NCBI GenBank assembly: GCA_001464695.1
Contig: LNDQ01000112.1
Location: 1 to 64,000 of the forward strand
DNA: 64,000 bases
From: Betaproteobacteria bacterium Ga0077523
Lineage (GTDB): Bacteria; Pseudomonadota; Gammaproteobacteria; Burkholderiales; Ga0077523
Reading direction: 5' to 3'
A program made the translations under genes and the position numbers. Of this stretch, positions 16,525 to 21,325 are shown piece by piece. The notes beneath the pieces were generated by a model. It was not told the origin of the DNA. It saw only the letters and a program-made list of their open reading frames with translations, and made no database searches. How positions within the stretch are numbered: position 1 is the stretch's first letter; each line of letters opens with the position of its first letter.

Positions 16525-17112
16525 TCAAGACTTTACGAATGCGAGAAGCGCCGAGTAGTCGCCTCCATCCGCCGCTCGGAGCGAGGCAATGTATCTCGTT
16601 CGCGCGTTGCCTGGCGCGACCAAATCGCTGCTTCCCCAAGTGAAAGGCATCCCGCCGTATCGGGTGAGCAGCACGTCGGCAATCAGGCGAGAGTGTCGGC
16701 CGTTGCCATTGGCAAATGGATGGATGCTGACGAGTCGATGGTGAAATCGGGCCGCCACTTCGTCGAGAGGATAGGTTCCGTTGTCGAGCCAGTAGCGGGT
16801 GTCGTCGAGCAGTACATGCAGCTCCACACCGATCCGGAGCCAATTTACCCCGATGTTCTTGTCCGAGCGACGGAAGTCCCCAGCCCATTTCCAGGTCCGG
16901 TCGAACATCCGGCGATGCAAGTTGCGGACGAACGCTTCGGTGAGGACATCTGTCGGCCGAGCCCTGAGTGCCCAGCGTGACGCGTTGAGGATGTTGTCTT
17001 GCTCCCACTCGTTGAGCTCCTGCTGGGTTCGGATGTGCTTGGGAATCAGCCCAGACGCCTCGTCGGGATCGAGCGGAGTTGCGCCCGGAGCGTGCGCGTC
17101 GCCTAGTCCCAT
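16525..17112 (-). CDS. Mobile mystery protein B (Fic-domain protein)
   Basis: A 195-residue Fic-family protein matching the mobile mystery protein B family, always encoded with protein A. Fic proteins transfer AMP or related groups to target proteins. The full active motif HPFANGNGRHSR is at 131-142, so the enzyme looks competent. The N-terminal GATPLDPDEASGLIPKHI and ELNEWEQDNIL, and the RRSDKNIGVNW stretch, are family hallmarks. The ATG at 17112 overlaps the stop of the HTH gene by 10 bases, so the two are translationally coupled. No classic inhibitory helix motif (S/T-x-x-x-E-G/N) is obvious; protein A may restrain it, by analogy with other Fic modules. Confidence 0.9.
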   Translation of the reverse strand: MGLGDAHAPGATPLDPDEASGLIPKHIRTQQELNEWEQDNILNASRWALRARPTDVLTEAFVRNLHRRMFDRTWKWAGDFRRSDKNIGVNWLRIGVELHVLLDDTRYWLDNGTYPLDEVAARFHHRLVSIHPFANGNGRHSRLIADVLLTRYGGMPFTWGSSDLVAPGNARTRYIASLRAADGGDYSALLAFVKS

Positions 17113-17552
17113 AGGCGCGACCAGCGTCCGCGCAACAACTCTGCCTTTACCTGTTCGATCTGTGATCGGGTGTAGGAGGCTCCCGTTTCCTGGGCTTCGA
17201 GTGTCATGGTGTGGGCGATGGGCATGACGTCGCGACGCGCGACTGCTTCGGCTTGGCTGTCCACGCGCTCTCGAAGTGATGTTCTGGGCACCAGCACGTA
17301 TCGCAATTCGCAGTCGAGCGCCTGCGCGAATCGACGCAGTTGCATCAGGGTGATCCGGTCGCTCGATTCGTTGCGCTCCGCCTGAAGGACCAGGGTGTGA
17401 GGGACTCCCATACGGGTCGCGAGCTGGCGAATGGTCATTCCGAGAGCTTCGCGCACCGCTTTCAGCCACCCGCCAGGCGGAGGCGGCGGAATGTTAGAGC
17501 CAGCGTCGCTCAAGGCGCGGTCTACTTGGTCGAGGCGAAGGATGGTGGACAT
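17103..17552 (-). CDS. Mobile mystery protein A (HTH regulator)
   Basis: A 149-residue DNA-binding protein of the mobile mystery protein A family. The Cro/CI-type helix-turn-helix spans about 31-66 (KAVREALGMTIRQLATRMGV then LVLQAERNESSDRITLMQLR). I chose the ATG at 17552, 11 codons into a longer frame, because RLDQVDRAL matches the usual family start; the longer form begins at 17585 inside the operator region. Three operator-like sites (17551-17640) lie directly upstream, so autoregulation is likely. It is the first gene of the A/B pair and follows the restriction-modification gene on the same strand. Confidence 0.88.
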   Translation of the reverse strand: MSTILRLDQVDRALSDAGSNIPPPPPGGWLKAVREALGMTIRQLATRMGVPHTLVLQAERNESSDRITLMQLRRFAQALDCELRYVLVPRTSLRERVDSQAEAVARRDVMPIAHTMTLEAQETGASYTRSQIEQVKAELLRGRWSRLWD

Positions 17553-17640
17553 GTTTACTTTAAAGTTAACAGATCTGGCCGGCATGGTAACTTAAACGTG
17601 CACAATTCGTCCAGATATGGTTACTTTAAAGTAAACAGAT
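17551..17640 (-). promoter_or_regulatory. Three operator-like palindromes at exact 33-bp spacing
   Basis: Site 1 GTTTACTTTAAAGTTAAC (17553-17570) and site 3 GGTTACTTTAAAGTAAAC (17619-17636) are near-perfect palindromes sharing the core ACTTTAAAGT, centred at 17561.5 and 17627.5. Midway, ACTTAAACGT (17590-17599, centre 17594.5) matches the core at 8 of 10 positions. The centres are therefore 33 bp apart, about three helical turns, so bound proteins would line up on one face. The sequence is AT-rich against a GC-rich background and abuts the start of the HTH gene. Confidence 0.75.
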
Positions 17641-17652
17641 CCAGCTTCCGTG

Positions 17653-20600
17653 TCAGGCAGTTGCCCAGACTGCATCGGCAACCCGTCGTGCCCGACCGAG
17701 TGCAACGAGCGTTTCTGCCAGTTCGGGAATACGCCGTTTCCAAGGGCCGCGGCCGGAGAAGTGGGCGGCAATGGCATCCGCAGTCATCGGGATACGGGCA
17801 CCGGCAAGCGCATCGGCGACGGCCTTCACCTGCTCCGGCACCGCGCTCGGCCACGGCTGCTTGGACTTCGGTACCGCGACTGCGATCGGTTCCTCCCCGG
17901 TTTCCATCTCGACCTGCGTAGGTGCCCTGGCACCCGCCGGATTCTGGAACTCGGGCCGCAGCCAGCGCACCAGGCCGCGCTTCTCCTCGGCCGCACGCTC
18001 GGCGTTGAGCGCGACCAGTCGTTCGAGCAGAGCGTCATCGAGCGCACGCTTGCACTCGTCCCGTGTCGTGGGCAATCCGTTCTTGCCCGCGGCCGTGTTG
18101 CCGTTCACCACCTGCACCAGGGGCGCGAGATCGGACCAGCCGTACGCATCGAGCACCGCCAGGTCGAGATCGTCGTGCAGCGTCTTCAGCACCGATACGA
18201 GGCCGTCTTCGTGGATGACCTTCTCTTTCGCGGTGAGCGGCTCGCTGGATCTCAGTTTCTCGAGCACGTTGTACATGCCGGTCAGCGTGAGGTCGGCGTG
18301 CGCCGCTTGCTGGCGTTTGCGGTGGACGTCGAGTTGTTCGGCGAGGGTGCGGACGCGGGACTGTTGGGCGTCCGTCGCGGCGGGGAAGGGGAAGGTCTCG
18401 AAGCAGCGGGTCTTGTTGTAGCGAGGACGGTCTTCGAGAGTACCGCCAGCCGCAAGTGCCCACGTCACGTGGATCTGGCTGGACAGCGTGCCGAGAATCA
18501 GTCCATCCGCCATGGCAATACAGATGACCATGTGATCGCAAAGTACGTCGGCGGGAACAAACTGGAATGCCCGGTGTTTCGCGGTCTCAGTGGTACCGAT
18601 GTATCGCGGCAATTCTTCAATCGCTTTTCTGACGAGCGGTCGCTCCCAGCCGAAGCGCCACCACAGCTCCCGAATGGAGTCCCTGCGATTCTGGTCTCGC
18701 TCGGGTTTGACTCGATCGACGATCCGCTGAAATGCCGCGGGGTTCCTGCTGCGTGCTTCCGTTTCAGAGAGTCCCGAAAAATCGACCAAGTACCGCACCC
18801 TCGGACGATCCAGAAGATCGCGCCCACCGAGGTAAGAACGAATTACCTCAGGCCCCGTGAGCCGAAGGTCGGCGGCAGCCTCTGGATCAAGGATGAAACC
18901 GGCGCCGTGAAGTGCCACTCCCATTCCGCTAATTCCGCTGTTCGCAACGAGCCCAACGCTCGCCGCAATGTTTGCGCCAATTCGAAGATCGGCATGCAAG
19001 CTGCCCACTCTCTTTGCCAACTCAACGCTGACTTCTCCGCTGTCACCCGTCGACTCAGCACGGACCTCGTAGCGCACGCCTTCGTGCGACCCTCGTTCGG
19101 CGACAGTCATAGAAATGCGCACGGCTGCGCCGTCTGCAGCGTCGACCCAGGGATGGTCAGGAACCGCAAAGACAAGCGATAGTGGAGTCTTGCCCGTCAA
19201 ATGAGATTCGATGACGCGTCGGTTGAATGACTGCGACAGACTGTTGGTGGTGATCAGTCCGAATCGTCGAAGAGCGGTCGCGCCGACGAGCGTAGCCGCG
19301 TGGTCCCACCAGTACATGACGTAATCTGCAGATTCCGGAATTTGTTTTAGCGTCCCTCGAAGCGCGTCGACATACCCGTCACCAAGCAAGGATCTCATCC
19401 GCTTTGTCCCGATGAACGGCGGATTCCCCACCACGAAGTCCGCCTTGGGCCACTCCGCCTTGCGCGGATTGACGTACCGCTCCATAGGTTTCTGCGCCCG
19501 CTCGTCAGGCACATTTTCCCCTGTGACGGGATGCTTCTTCATCGTCTTGCCGTCCCACCGCGTCACCGGCAGGCCGCGCTCGTCCATCACGAACTCGACT
19601 TTGTCGTAGGCGAGCACTGCGTCGCGGCATTCGATGTTGTGAAAATCCTTCAGCACTGGCTGGGGCGGCATCACTTGCCCTCGGGTGCGGAAGTGCCACT
19701 GTAGATATCCGATCCAAAGCACCATCTCCGCGATGGCGGCAGCACGCGGATTGATCTCGATGCCGAGCAGTTGATGCGGGTCGACGGTGACGCCGGCCAG
19801 CTCCATGCGGCCTTGGGTGTCGCCCAGTTCGTCGAGCTGGTTCAGCACTTCACCTTCGAGGCGCTTGAGGTGTTCTAGCGTGACGTAGAGGAAATTGCCC
19901 GAGCCGCATGCGGGGTCGAGCACGCGCACGGTGCAGAGCCGGTGATGGAACTCGCGCAACTGCTTACGCGCATCGTCAAGCTTGCCTTCGCGTGCGAGTA
20001 CGAGTGCGGCGCCTTGCGCGAGTTGCCAATCGTCGCGCAGCGGCTCCACCACCGTGGGCAGTACGAGCCGCTCGACATAGGCGCGGGGCGTGTAGTGCGC
20101 GCCGAGGGCATGCCGTTCTTCCGGGTCGAGGGCGCGTTCGAGCAGCGTGCCGAAGATCGCGGGCTCGACGTGCTGCCAGTCGGCGCGCGCGGCTTCGAGC
20201 AGCAGGTCGATCTGGTCGCGGTCGAGCGACAGAACGACCGGGTCCTTGAACAGCTTGCCGTTGAAGCGCAGCACGTCGGTCCGGATCGCGGTGGAGAAGT
20301 CACCGCGGTCCATGGCGGTCCAGAGCTCCCGCACAAGCGGCACGAACTGTTGCGGCGAATCCTTCAGGCCTTCGAGAAGATTCGTGAATGCCCTCTTCGG
20401 GAGCAGCCCGACATCCTCCGCAAACATGGAGAACAGACAGCGGCTGAGGAACTGGGCAACGCTCTCGGGTGCATGGCAGGTCCCTTCGAGTACCTGTGCC
20501 ACCCGAGCCAGACGAGCGGCAACGTCGCGCGTGACTTTGGCCGACACCCGGGATGGGTCGAGTGCCAGCGGGTCGATCCAGACGGTTCGCAACCGATTCC

Positions 20601-21105
20601 GCAACGCCTCATCGCGCAGATCTGTCAGGTGGATTCGATGTGACCTTGGATCGGGGAAAGGCGTGTAGGTCGCGCCGGATCGGGTGAACTCGGCGTACAA
20701 CTCTATGACGTTGCCGACGTCCACCACCAGAAGGAACGGAGGGCGCCCTTCAGTGGCGGGGAGCGCGCGGGCGTACTGCTCGGCCTGCCCGCGGGCGCGC
20801 ATCAGGGCGTCGTCGAAGCCGGAGCCTTCGGCCTTGCGAATCTTCTTGGCTTCGAGCACGAAATTTCCGCGCCGGTAGCAGTCTATGAAGCCGCTCGACT
20901 CGGTGCCGTCTCCGTGCCGGAAAGTTACCCGGCGTTCAAAGACGTACGCGTTGTCCCGGGTATCTTCCCTGGCCGGATCGGGCGTCGGCACGTCCAGAAG
21001 GAGGCAAAGCTCCTGGACGAACAACTGGTAGTTGGCCCGCTCCGAGCCGCCGGCGGCCTGCCAGCGGGCGATGAATGCGTCGATCTTGTCGGTCGGGGCA
21101 GGCAC
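17653..21105 (-). CDS. Single-chain restriction-modification enzyme (MmeI-like, type IIL/IIG)
   Basis: A protein of about 1150 residues combining nuclease and adenine methyltransferase activity. From the GTG at 21105: an N-terminal PD-(D/E)xK-type nuclease with Asp75, Glu85 and Lys87 (GFIDCYRRGNFVLEAKKI); helical connector; SAM motif I VLDPACGSGNFLY (395-407); catalytic motif GNPPF (560-564), the N6-adenine type; a target-recognition region of about 600-950; and a C-terminal helical/winged-helix-like tail. No separate S or R subunit and no BREX or DISARM partner genes are nearby, so it probably acts alone. The start is uncertain: the frame is open to 21273, where it would run through the SAH riboswitch on the other strand. 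Confidence 0.82.
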   Translation of the reverse strand: MPAPTDKIDAFIARWQAAGGSERANYQLFVQELCLLLDVPTPDPAREDTRDNAYVFERRVTFRHGDGTESSGFIDCYRRGNFVLEAKKIRKAEGSGFDDALMRARGQAEQYARALPATEGRPPFLLVVDVGNVIELYAEFTRSGATYTPFPDPRSHRIHLTDLRDEALRNRLRTVWIDPLALDPSRVSAKVTRDVAARLARVAQVLEGTCHAPESVAQFLSRCLFSMFAEDVGLLPKRAFTNLLEGLKDSPQQFVPLVRELWTAMDRGDFSTAIRTDVLRFNGKLFKDPVVLSLDRDQIDLLLEAARADWQHVEPAIFGTLLERALDPEERHALGAHYTPRAYVERLVLPTVVEPLRDDWQLAQGAALVLAREGKLDDARKQLREFHHRLCTVRVLDPACGSGNFLYVTLEHLKRLEGEVLNQLDELGDTQGRMELAGVTVDPHQLLGIEINPRAAAIAEMVLWIGYLQWHFRTRGQVMPPQPVLKDFHNIECRDAVLAYDKVEFVMDERGLPVTRWDGKTMKKHPVTGENVPDERAQKPMERYVNPRKAEWPKADFVVGNPPFIGTKRMRSLLGDGYVDALRGTLKQIPESADYVMYWWDHAATLVGATALRRFGLITTNSLSQSFNRRVIESHLTGKTPLSLVFAVPDHPWVDAADGAAVRISMTVAERGSHEGVRYEVRAESTGDSGEVSVELAKRVGSLHADLRIGANIAASVGLVANSGISGMGVALHGAGFILDPEAAADLRLTGPEVIRSYLGGRDLLDRPRVRYLVDFSGLSETEARSRNPAAFQRIVDRVKPERDQNRRDSIRELWWRFGWERPLVRKAIEELPRYIGTTETAKHRAFQFVPADVLCDHMVICIAMADGLILGTLSSQIHVTWALAAGGTLEDRPRYNKTRCFETFPFPAATDAQQSRVRTLAEQLDVHRKRQQAAHADLTLTGMYNVLEKLRSSEPLTAKEKVIHEDGLVSVLKTLHDDLDLAVLDAYGWSDLAPLVQVVNGNTAAGKNGLPTTRDECKRALDDALLERLVALNAERAAEEKRGLVRWLRPEFQNPAGARAPTQVEMETGEEPIAVAVPKSKQPWPSAVPEQVKAVADALAGARIPMTADAIAAHFSGRGPWKRRIPELAETLVALGRARRVADAVWATA

Positions 21106-21156
21106 GGTGGGGTTCGAGAGAGAACTGGGGGAGTGTATCGGATCAGCCACTTGGGT

Positions 21157-21162
21157 TAATAT
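21157..21162 (+). promoter_or_regulatory. Possible -10 box of the ahcY promoter
   Basis: TAATAT lies about 10 bases upstream of the 5' edge of the SAH riboswitch, where transcription should begin. No convincing -35 hexamer is visible 16-18 bases upstream. Confidence 0.4.
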
Positions 21163-21169
21163 CCGCGCC

Positions 21170-21228
21170 GTCCTGAGGAGCGCTGCAACGGGGTCCCCCG
21201 CCAGGCTCAGGTTTCGGAACCGCGCTCG
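21170..21228 (+). promoter_or_regulatory. SAH riboswitch upstream of ahcY
   Basis: The segment has the conserved S-adenosylhomocysteine riboswitch core: CCTGAGGAGCGCTGCAACGG, then CCGCCAGGCTCAGG, then AACCGCGCTCG. P1 pairs CCTGAG (21172-21177) with CTCAGG (21206-21211). The pseudoknot pairs GAGCGC (21178-21183) with GCGCTC (21222-21227). An internal GGGG/CCCC helix lies between. This class turns on SAH-recycling genes when SAH accumulates, and is found mainly in beta- and some gammaproteobacteria. It ends about 98 bases before the ahcY GTG start. Confidence 0.92.
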
Positions 21229-21325
21229 TTGACTCGTGACCACGCTCACGGGTGGCGAGACGGGCAGCACCACTTCCCCCCTTCACGTCGCCCAGCGGCC
21301 TGGTCCTTCAACCAGGAGAGACGCC

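Follow-up and report, generated by a model that had tools for sequence, protein, structure and literature searches.

How is a mobile mystery A/B gene pair controlled, and what is the role of three palindromes standing at equal distances in front of it? The question is raised by a 64,000-nucleotide stretch of Betaproteobacteria bacterium Ga0077523 (contig LNDQ01000112.1, positions 1 to 64,000; hereafter the window), in which the genes for mobile mystery proteins A and B (mmA and mmB) follow three operator-like sites. An initial annotation, made from the sequence alone, had read these sites as operators of the pair. On the basis of sequence comparison among homologous loci, we consider it highly likely that the three sites, named O1, O2 and O3 in reading order towards mmA, are operators of mmAB at which MmA dimers, bound together at a fixed step, repress the operon.

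Three sites at a 33-bp step in front of mmA

The 10-mer ACTTTAAAGT is found at 17557-17566 and 17623-17632, with centres at 17561.5 and 17627.5 as first described, and the degenerate copy reported between them, ACTTAAACGT at 17590-17599 (centre 17594.5), is identical to the core at 8 of 10 positions. The centre-to-centre step is exactly 33 bp both times. The palindrome itself, GTTWACTTTAAAGTWAAC, extends over about 18-20 bp and is longer than the 10-mer first noted. The 33-bp units into which the region had been divided start on the plus strand at 17551, 17584 and 17617 with ATGT, ATGG and ATGG, in agreement with the ATG-[G/T] start ascribed to them. The units are oriented towards mmA on the minus strand; what they share at the start is the CAT at the end of each site, and the last of them continues into the ATG of mmA. 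No ATG-[G/T] appears in the consensus sites of the homologue groups that we examined.

When three 18-bp palindromic sites were fitted to the window with free steps of 24-42 bp, both steps came out at 33 bp. Within the whole 4.7-Mb assembly (156 contigs, 87% complete), ACTTTAAAGT occurs at these two places only, about 0.4 copies being expected if the guanine-plus-cytosine content is 65%. A search with GTTTACTTTAAAGTAAAC at up to three mismatches, which the degenerate O2 escapes, returned no assembly match beyond the two strong sites. Likewise, the window held no further site within three mismatches, and 0 matches turned up in 100 shuffled versions of it. A regulator of many genes was rejected as a candidate, the assembly being without any other strong site.

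The gene directly downstream of the sites encodes a helix-turn-helix (HTH) protein, as the initial annotation had stated. MmA passes the curated cut-off of TIGR02612 (141.9 versus 122.6 bits, residues 6-149, E 1.3e-41) and also matches HTH_3, while MmB passes that of TIGR02613 (271.8 versus 124.4 bits, E 2.9e-81) and carries the Fic domain PF02661. The two genes overlap by 10 bp. They are laid out as a type II toxin-antitoxin module of the Xre-Fic kind, namely a two-gene predicted operon with the DNA-binding gene first and coupled to its partner.

Conservation of the step among mmA homologues

The initial annotation had proposed a search for phased palindromes upstream of mobile mystery A homologues. 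Among 138 loci (L003-L140), 126 had an MmA-like frame, 9 had none and 3 lacked a start; 17 of the 126 frames were removed for near-duplicate upstream regions, truncation, too short upstream DNA or an unaligned start, leaving 109 distinct loci. The scan of named genome contigs retained the best 80 of 498 relatives, and many of the named homologue loci are metagenome bins, the names of which may be wrong. In 99 of the 109 loci, mmB lies immediately downstream of mmA.

Self-similarity was measured over the last 120 bp before the mmA ATG at lags of 8-79 bp, with 100 shuffle sets. At lag 33 the mean self-identity over the 109 loci was 0.419 versus 0.299 in the shuffled sequences (z 26.9), and at lag 66 it was 0.370 (z 11.7); the next-ranking lags, 12 and 11, reached z of 6.0 and 5.7. 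Of the 109 loci, 56 had exactly 33 as the best single lag in the range 20-60, 13 had 32 and 5 had 34. Lag 33 was best in 11 of the first 25 loci and in 46 of the 84 fetched later, the latter with a z of 9.2 against other lags. Thinning to less than 50% protein identity left 30 loci, 14 of which still had 33 as their best lag (z 9.0 relative to other lags).

Fitting of sites gave the same picture. When the steps were allowed to vary from 24 to 42 bp, 135 of 218 were exactly 33 bp, and both steps fell within 32-34 bp in 71 of the 109 loci versus 4 of 109 with one shuffle per locus. When three palindromic 18-mers were fitted at steps of 32-34 bp, 85 of the 109 loci reached z>3, the window locus ranking first with z = 14.0, and 59 of these 85 were 33/33 arrays. 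Most homologues hence carry the phased palindromes that the initial annotation had asked for, with a 33-bp step and at similar places. Among six plasmid records, picked for organism variety from 60 of 238 rows and used with their deposited starts, five had sites at steps of 32 or 33 bp that outscored each of 30 shuffles, among them the record of the actinobacterium Euzebya pacifica.

The period was lacking in the regions used as controls. Against other lags, z at lag 33 was only 1.6 for 327 segments drawn at random from these loci and 1.1 for 221 regions preceding other open reading frames. Lag 33 was also unremarkable at 30 HigA loci. Gene order at higA probably puts the toxin gene before higA, so the region before it is probably the toxin gene, which makes this a weak control. 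Of 30 HipB-like loci (L174-L203, unthinned for relatedness), 26 were used; their z at lag 33 was -0.5, and lags 50, 49 and 27 were favoured instead; 200 random mmA subsets of the same size all gave z of at least 5.3 at lag 33. Since HipB-like genes have favoured lags of their own, families of XRE antitoxins may each have a characteristic operator spacing.

The arrays share a common anatomy. Mean palindromy over the 109 loci peaks at centres -45, -44, -78, -77, -76 and -12, and these peaks recur every 33 bp. In 62 of the 85 loci, the centre of the last site lies at -12 to -10 relative to the ATG. The general form of a site is a 6-bp half-site, six A/T-rich bases and the mirrored half-site; L083 and L089 are examples of homologues whose sites are nearly perfect. 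Within a locus, consecutive sites are identical at a fraction of 0.67 and the two linkers at 0.36 (85 loci). This difference bears on the idea that the period is a functionless recent 33-bp tandem duplication, or a set of iteron-like elements of a mobile element. O1 and O3 of the window do have a few flanking bases in common (GATCTGTT). The linkers, however, are unconserved, the array is anchored to the mmA start codon, and the step is kept while the letters of the sites change with the recognition helix of MmA (see below), which leaves this origin highly improbable. A neutral tandem repeat was rejected on account of the unconserved linkers.

The position of the array relative to transcription and translation signals raises a different alternative, namely that the operators are the same and each MmA dimer binds independently, the 33-bp step merely reflecting the positions of promoter elements and the ribosome site. 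The last AGG begins at -11 or -10 in 41 of the 109 loci, and in the O3 consensus of 41 loci with the MmA recognition-helix sequence SQPR, GG (at least 80%) adjoins the half-site; from this placement, O3 often holds the ribosome site. Furthermore, in a group of 13 loci the right arm of O1 is TTGAC (at least 80%), resembling a -35 element, and the left arm of O2 is TATA-like (at least 55%). Both features suit independent binding. Against it, a step of 33 bp does not follow from the usual distance between -35 and -10 elements, and the promoter elements are placed differently from group to group and also among the loci of one group; the commonest placement, in which the -35 element begins 17-18 bp upstream of the O2 centre, accounts for 11 of the 41 SQPR loci. 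Uniform arrays with another step, 32/32 in 7 and 34/34 in 3 of the 85 loci, also speak against this explanation, as does a fourth site one step further upstream in 9 of the 85, where no promoter element is needed. We regard independent binding as unlikely.

The three 34/34 loci (L003, L017 and L035) have MmA N-termini that resemble each other (LKQLD or IRQLD), a hint that the protein sets the spacing. Four loci (L013, L027, L056 and L110) have apparent mmB remnants after mmA, and z>3 was found in L027, L056 and L110. Loci with an orphan mmA are uninformative on whether MmB sets the spacing, because several of them look like recent losses, and L072 simply ends there. At L013, a different and longer Fic protein (HPFNDGNGR) begins 187 bp after mmA, where mmB looks decayed.

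Probable recognition of the sites by MmA

The recognition helix of MmA lies near residues 51-58 (PHTLVLQA) and corresponds to helix 52-63 of the predicted structure. We compared operator and protein differences among the 85 loci with z>3, loci without clear operators being left out. Operator differences tracked MmA residues 50-55 best (raw r 0.76, partial r 0.62 with whole-protein distance removed), while the largest value in 200 label permutations, with every third window scanned, was 0.217. T53 and H52 were the top single columns. The same dependence is visible in the half-sites. With the helix sequence SQPR (43 loci), 221 of 258 arms have ATAA and 3 have ATCA; with VQSR (9 loci), ATCA is found in 36 of 54 arms and ATAA in 1; with TRAR (5 loci), 20 of 30 arms have GTCAA and 4 have GTAAA. 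This covariation points strongly, if indirectly, to MmA as the protein that reads the sites. Together with the 33-bp palindromes in most homologues, it supports well that the HTH protein controls its own operon; MmA very probably binds O1-O3 and represses mmAB.

Comparison of the loci thus provides the sites, their spacing, position and conservation, and the agreement of their letters with the helix. Dimeric binding, repression, cooperativity, any role of MmB and the cause of the 33-bp step are what we infer from it, cooperativity because the spacing is fixed. We propose that one MmA dimer, with its XRE/HipB-like HTH, would occupy each palindrome of about 18 bp. The step of 33 bp, about three helical turns, would set adjacent dimers to touch or to be bridged by the Fic partner MmB. 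The promoter would lie under the jointly bound dimers, as would the start of mmA at O3, and the operon would be repressed as in the autoregulation by type II antitoxins. In Mesorhizobium loti, a gene annotated as mobile mystery protein b, mll2066, ranks within the 50 genes most strongly induced by heat (M-value 4.02; PMC3989490), which fits derepression under stress and is no demonstration of it.

Several observations weigh against this proposal. At the window locus, O2 is degenerate, and a scan for sigma-70-type promoters found none; a terminator scan there also gave nothing. The fit falls short of z>3 in 24 of the 109 loci; sites lie beyond the fitted range in L005, L007 and L013 among them, and L028, L038, L088, L115, L117, L118 and L124 score z <0.5. 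The closest homologue of the same order (L211) has two sites 33 bp apart in an array that is weak and scores below its own shuffles. In the plasmid set, the Devosia record failed, two of the five passes are marginal (z 3.2 and 2.4), and the last sites lie at -4 to -17 rather than -12 to -10. The covariation test permutes labels and removes relatedness in part only. Finally, 33 bp is a non-integral number of helical turns. The initial annotation had put the bound proteins on one face of the DNA at about three turns; the latter holds, and the former is approximate only, for at 10.5 bp per turn the step amounts to 3.14 turns and each site is displaced by about 51 degrees.

The structural model of MmA, predicted from 44 sequences (predicted local distance difference test 86, predicted template-modelling score 0.60), is most like HipB and HigA2 in Foldseek, the likeness being at fold level only, with a best E of 0.04 and none below 0.001. 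By sequence, the best match of MmA among solved structures is PDB 9sf2, 'Transcriptional regulator' (residues 27-136, E 1.9e-4); we located no paper on this entry. In E. coli hipBA, HipB binds cooperatively to four 18-bp palindromes, TATCCN8GGATA (PMC3920265). As in a HipB-type array, several palindromes of about 18 bp stand before their own XRE gene in mmAB, and MmA, as a putative antitoxin, further shares with HipB the XRE type, a similar HTH fold and a gene in first place. Unlike mmAB with its 33/33 steps and Fic partner, E. coli hipBA has centre steps of 28/39/28 and a kinase partner, HipA, and the MmA model adds helices before and after the HTH. The hipBA operon is the nearest known design. 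The operator of YefM-YoeB differs from mmAB in its step of 12 bp, its two palindromes and the different fold of its antitoxin. It shares paired palindromes with fixed spacing, and altered spacing breaks cooperative binding there. The Xre-RES complex of P. putida acts on a palindromic repeat to repress its own promoter, and a secondary site has been suggested (PMC12204516); unlike in mmAB, the toxin is of the RES type, and the abstract describes no 33-bp array. Xre-Fic pairs have been counted among the type II toxin-antitoxin combinations, with 22 occurrences of a Fic/Doc gene beside xre (Makarova 2009, PMC2701414). The pairing is of the same kind as in mmAB, and the passages of that paper on it give neither operator nor spacing.

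The Fic partner itself has an unusual motif. The canonical motif of Fic adenosine monophosphate (AMP) transferases is HxFx[D/E]GNGRxxR. MmB instead has HxFxNGNGRxxR (HPFANGNGRHSR in the window), with N for D/E in 91 of 92 motif-matched loci (100 loci with mmB, 8 of them without a motif match). MmB may be no ordinary AMP-transferase. MmB also matches PADLOC PDC-S04 models (best E 9.8e-23), which we take to be phage-defence candidates, and a table of defence systems lists TIGR02613 under Fic/Doc among the cargo of Tn7-like transposons (PMC8649781).

A more tentative extension, which we hold to be possible and rather less than even in likelihood, is that a ruler encoded by the protein sets the 33-bp step. 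On the promoter, MmA dimers would then form a regular higher-order array in which MmB probably serves as the bridge; the Fic protein would be retained at its own operon and set free along with derepression, and a simple, readable half-site code in residues 51-54 of MmA would define a large set of mutually orthogonal repressors with one architecture.

Genomic setting and biological meaning

The features of the locus are collected in Table 1.

Table 1. Predicted operators and genes at the mmAB locus, in window positions
Feature	Positions	Strand	Remarks
O1 operator (predicted)	17619..17636	minus	GTTTACTTTAAAGTAACC on minus strand, centre 17627.5
O2 operator (predicted), degenerate	17586..17603	minus	GTGCACGTTTAAGTTACC on minus strand, centre 17594.5
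O3 operator (predicted)	17553..17570	minus	GTTAACTTTAAAGTAAAC on minus strand, centre 17561.5, ends at mmA ATG
100-bp gap, type IIG gene end to mmA start	17553..17652	minus	contains O1-O3
mmA, mobile mystery protein A	17103..17552	minus	149 aa, XRE/Cro HTH, proposed O1-O3 binder
mmB, mobile mystery protein B	16525..17112	minus	195-aa Fic protein, motif HPFANGNGRHSR
MmeI-like type IIG restriction-modification gene, outside module	17653..21273	minus	PF20473/PF20464 and PADLOC REase_MTase_IIG

The restriction-modification gene upstream offers one more explanation, in which the HTH gene encodes the controller protein of this type IIG enzyme and the sites control the enzyme's gene. The two genes adjoin on the same strand, and restriction controller proteins are also among the Foldseek matches of the MmA fold. 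Yet 3.6 kb separate the start of the restriction gene from the sites, which lie downstream of it; the window has no further site within three mismatches, and no homologue of this enzyme was found at the other 108 loci (tblastn E 1e-6, up to 1.5 or 4 kb per side, less at contig ends). We give this explanation very little credence. A restriction-modification controller was rejected as a candidate, as no operators were found at the restriction gene and a search for homologues of this one enzyme showed no linkage. The type IIG gene directly upstream of the mmAB sites is a local pairing, not found in the DNA covered at the other 108 loci.

Between 13478 and 23619 of the window, mmAB, restriction genes and a DEAD-box helicase-like gene stand between metK-like and ahcY/metF-like genes, as judged from translations read by eye. 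None of 11 other genomes of the same genus contains an mmA match, and with these flanking genes the mmAB module looks like an insertion. At the level of the class, 26 of 369 genomes had an mmA match above the cut-off, and at that of the phylum 17 of 398, the genome of the window being counted in both. Mobile mystery A/B pairs are present on both chromosomes and plasmids; among phage records there was no MmA match at E 1e-5.

The initial annotation knew of no described operator for this family, and the passages of the open-licence literature covered likewise describe none for mobile mystery A/B, nor 33-bp operators of a repressor or antitoxin, nor a functional study of the pairs, nor a binding or expression experiment on the window locus. 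An operator spacing that is constant to the base pair even where MmA proteins share less than 50% identity, together with letters that follow the helix, makes mmAB a specific and testable repressor-operator system. The natural table of helices and sites could guide the design of orthogonal repressors. Two matters become testable: the control of this kind of Fic pair, and the way in which an XRE repressor family sets the spacing between its operators.
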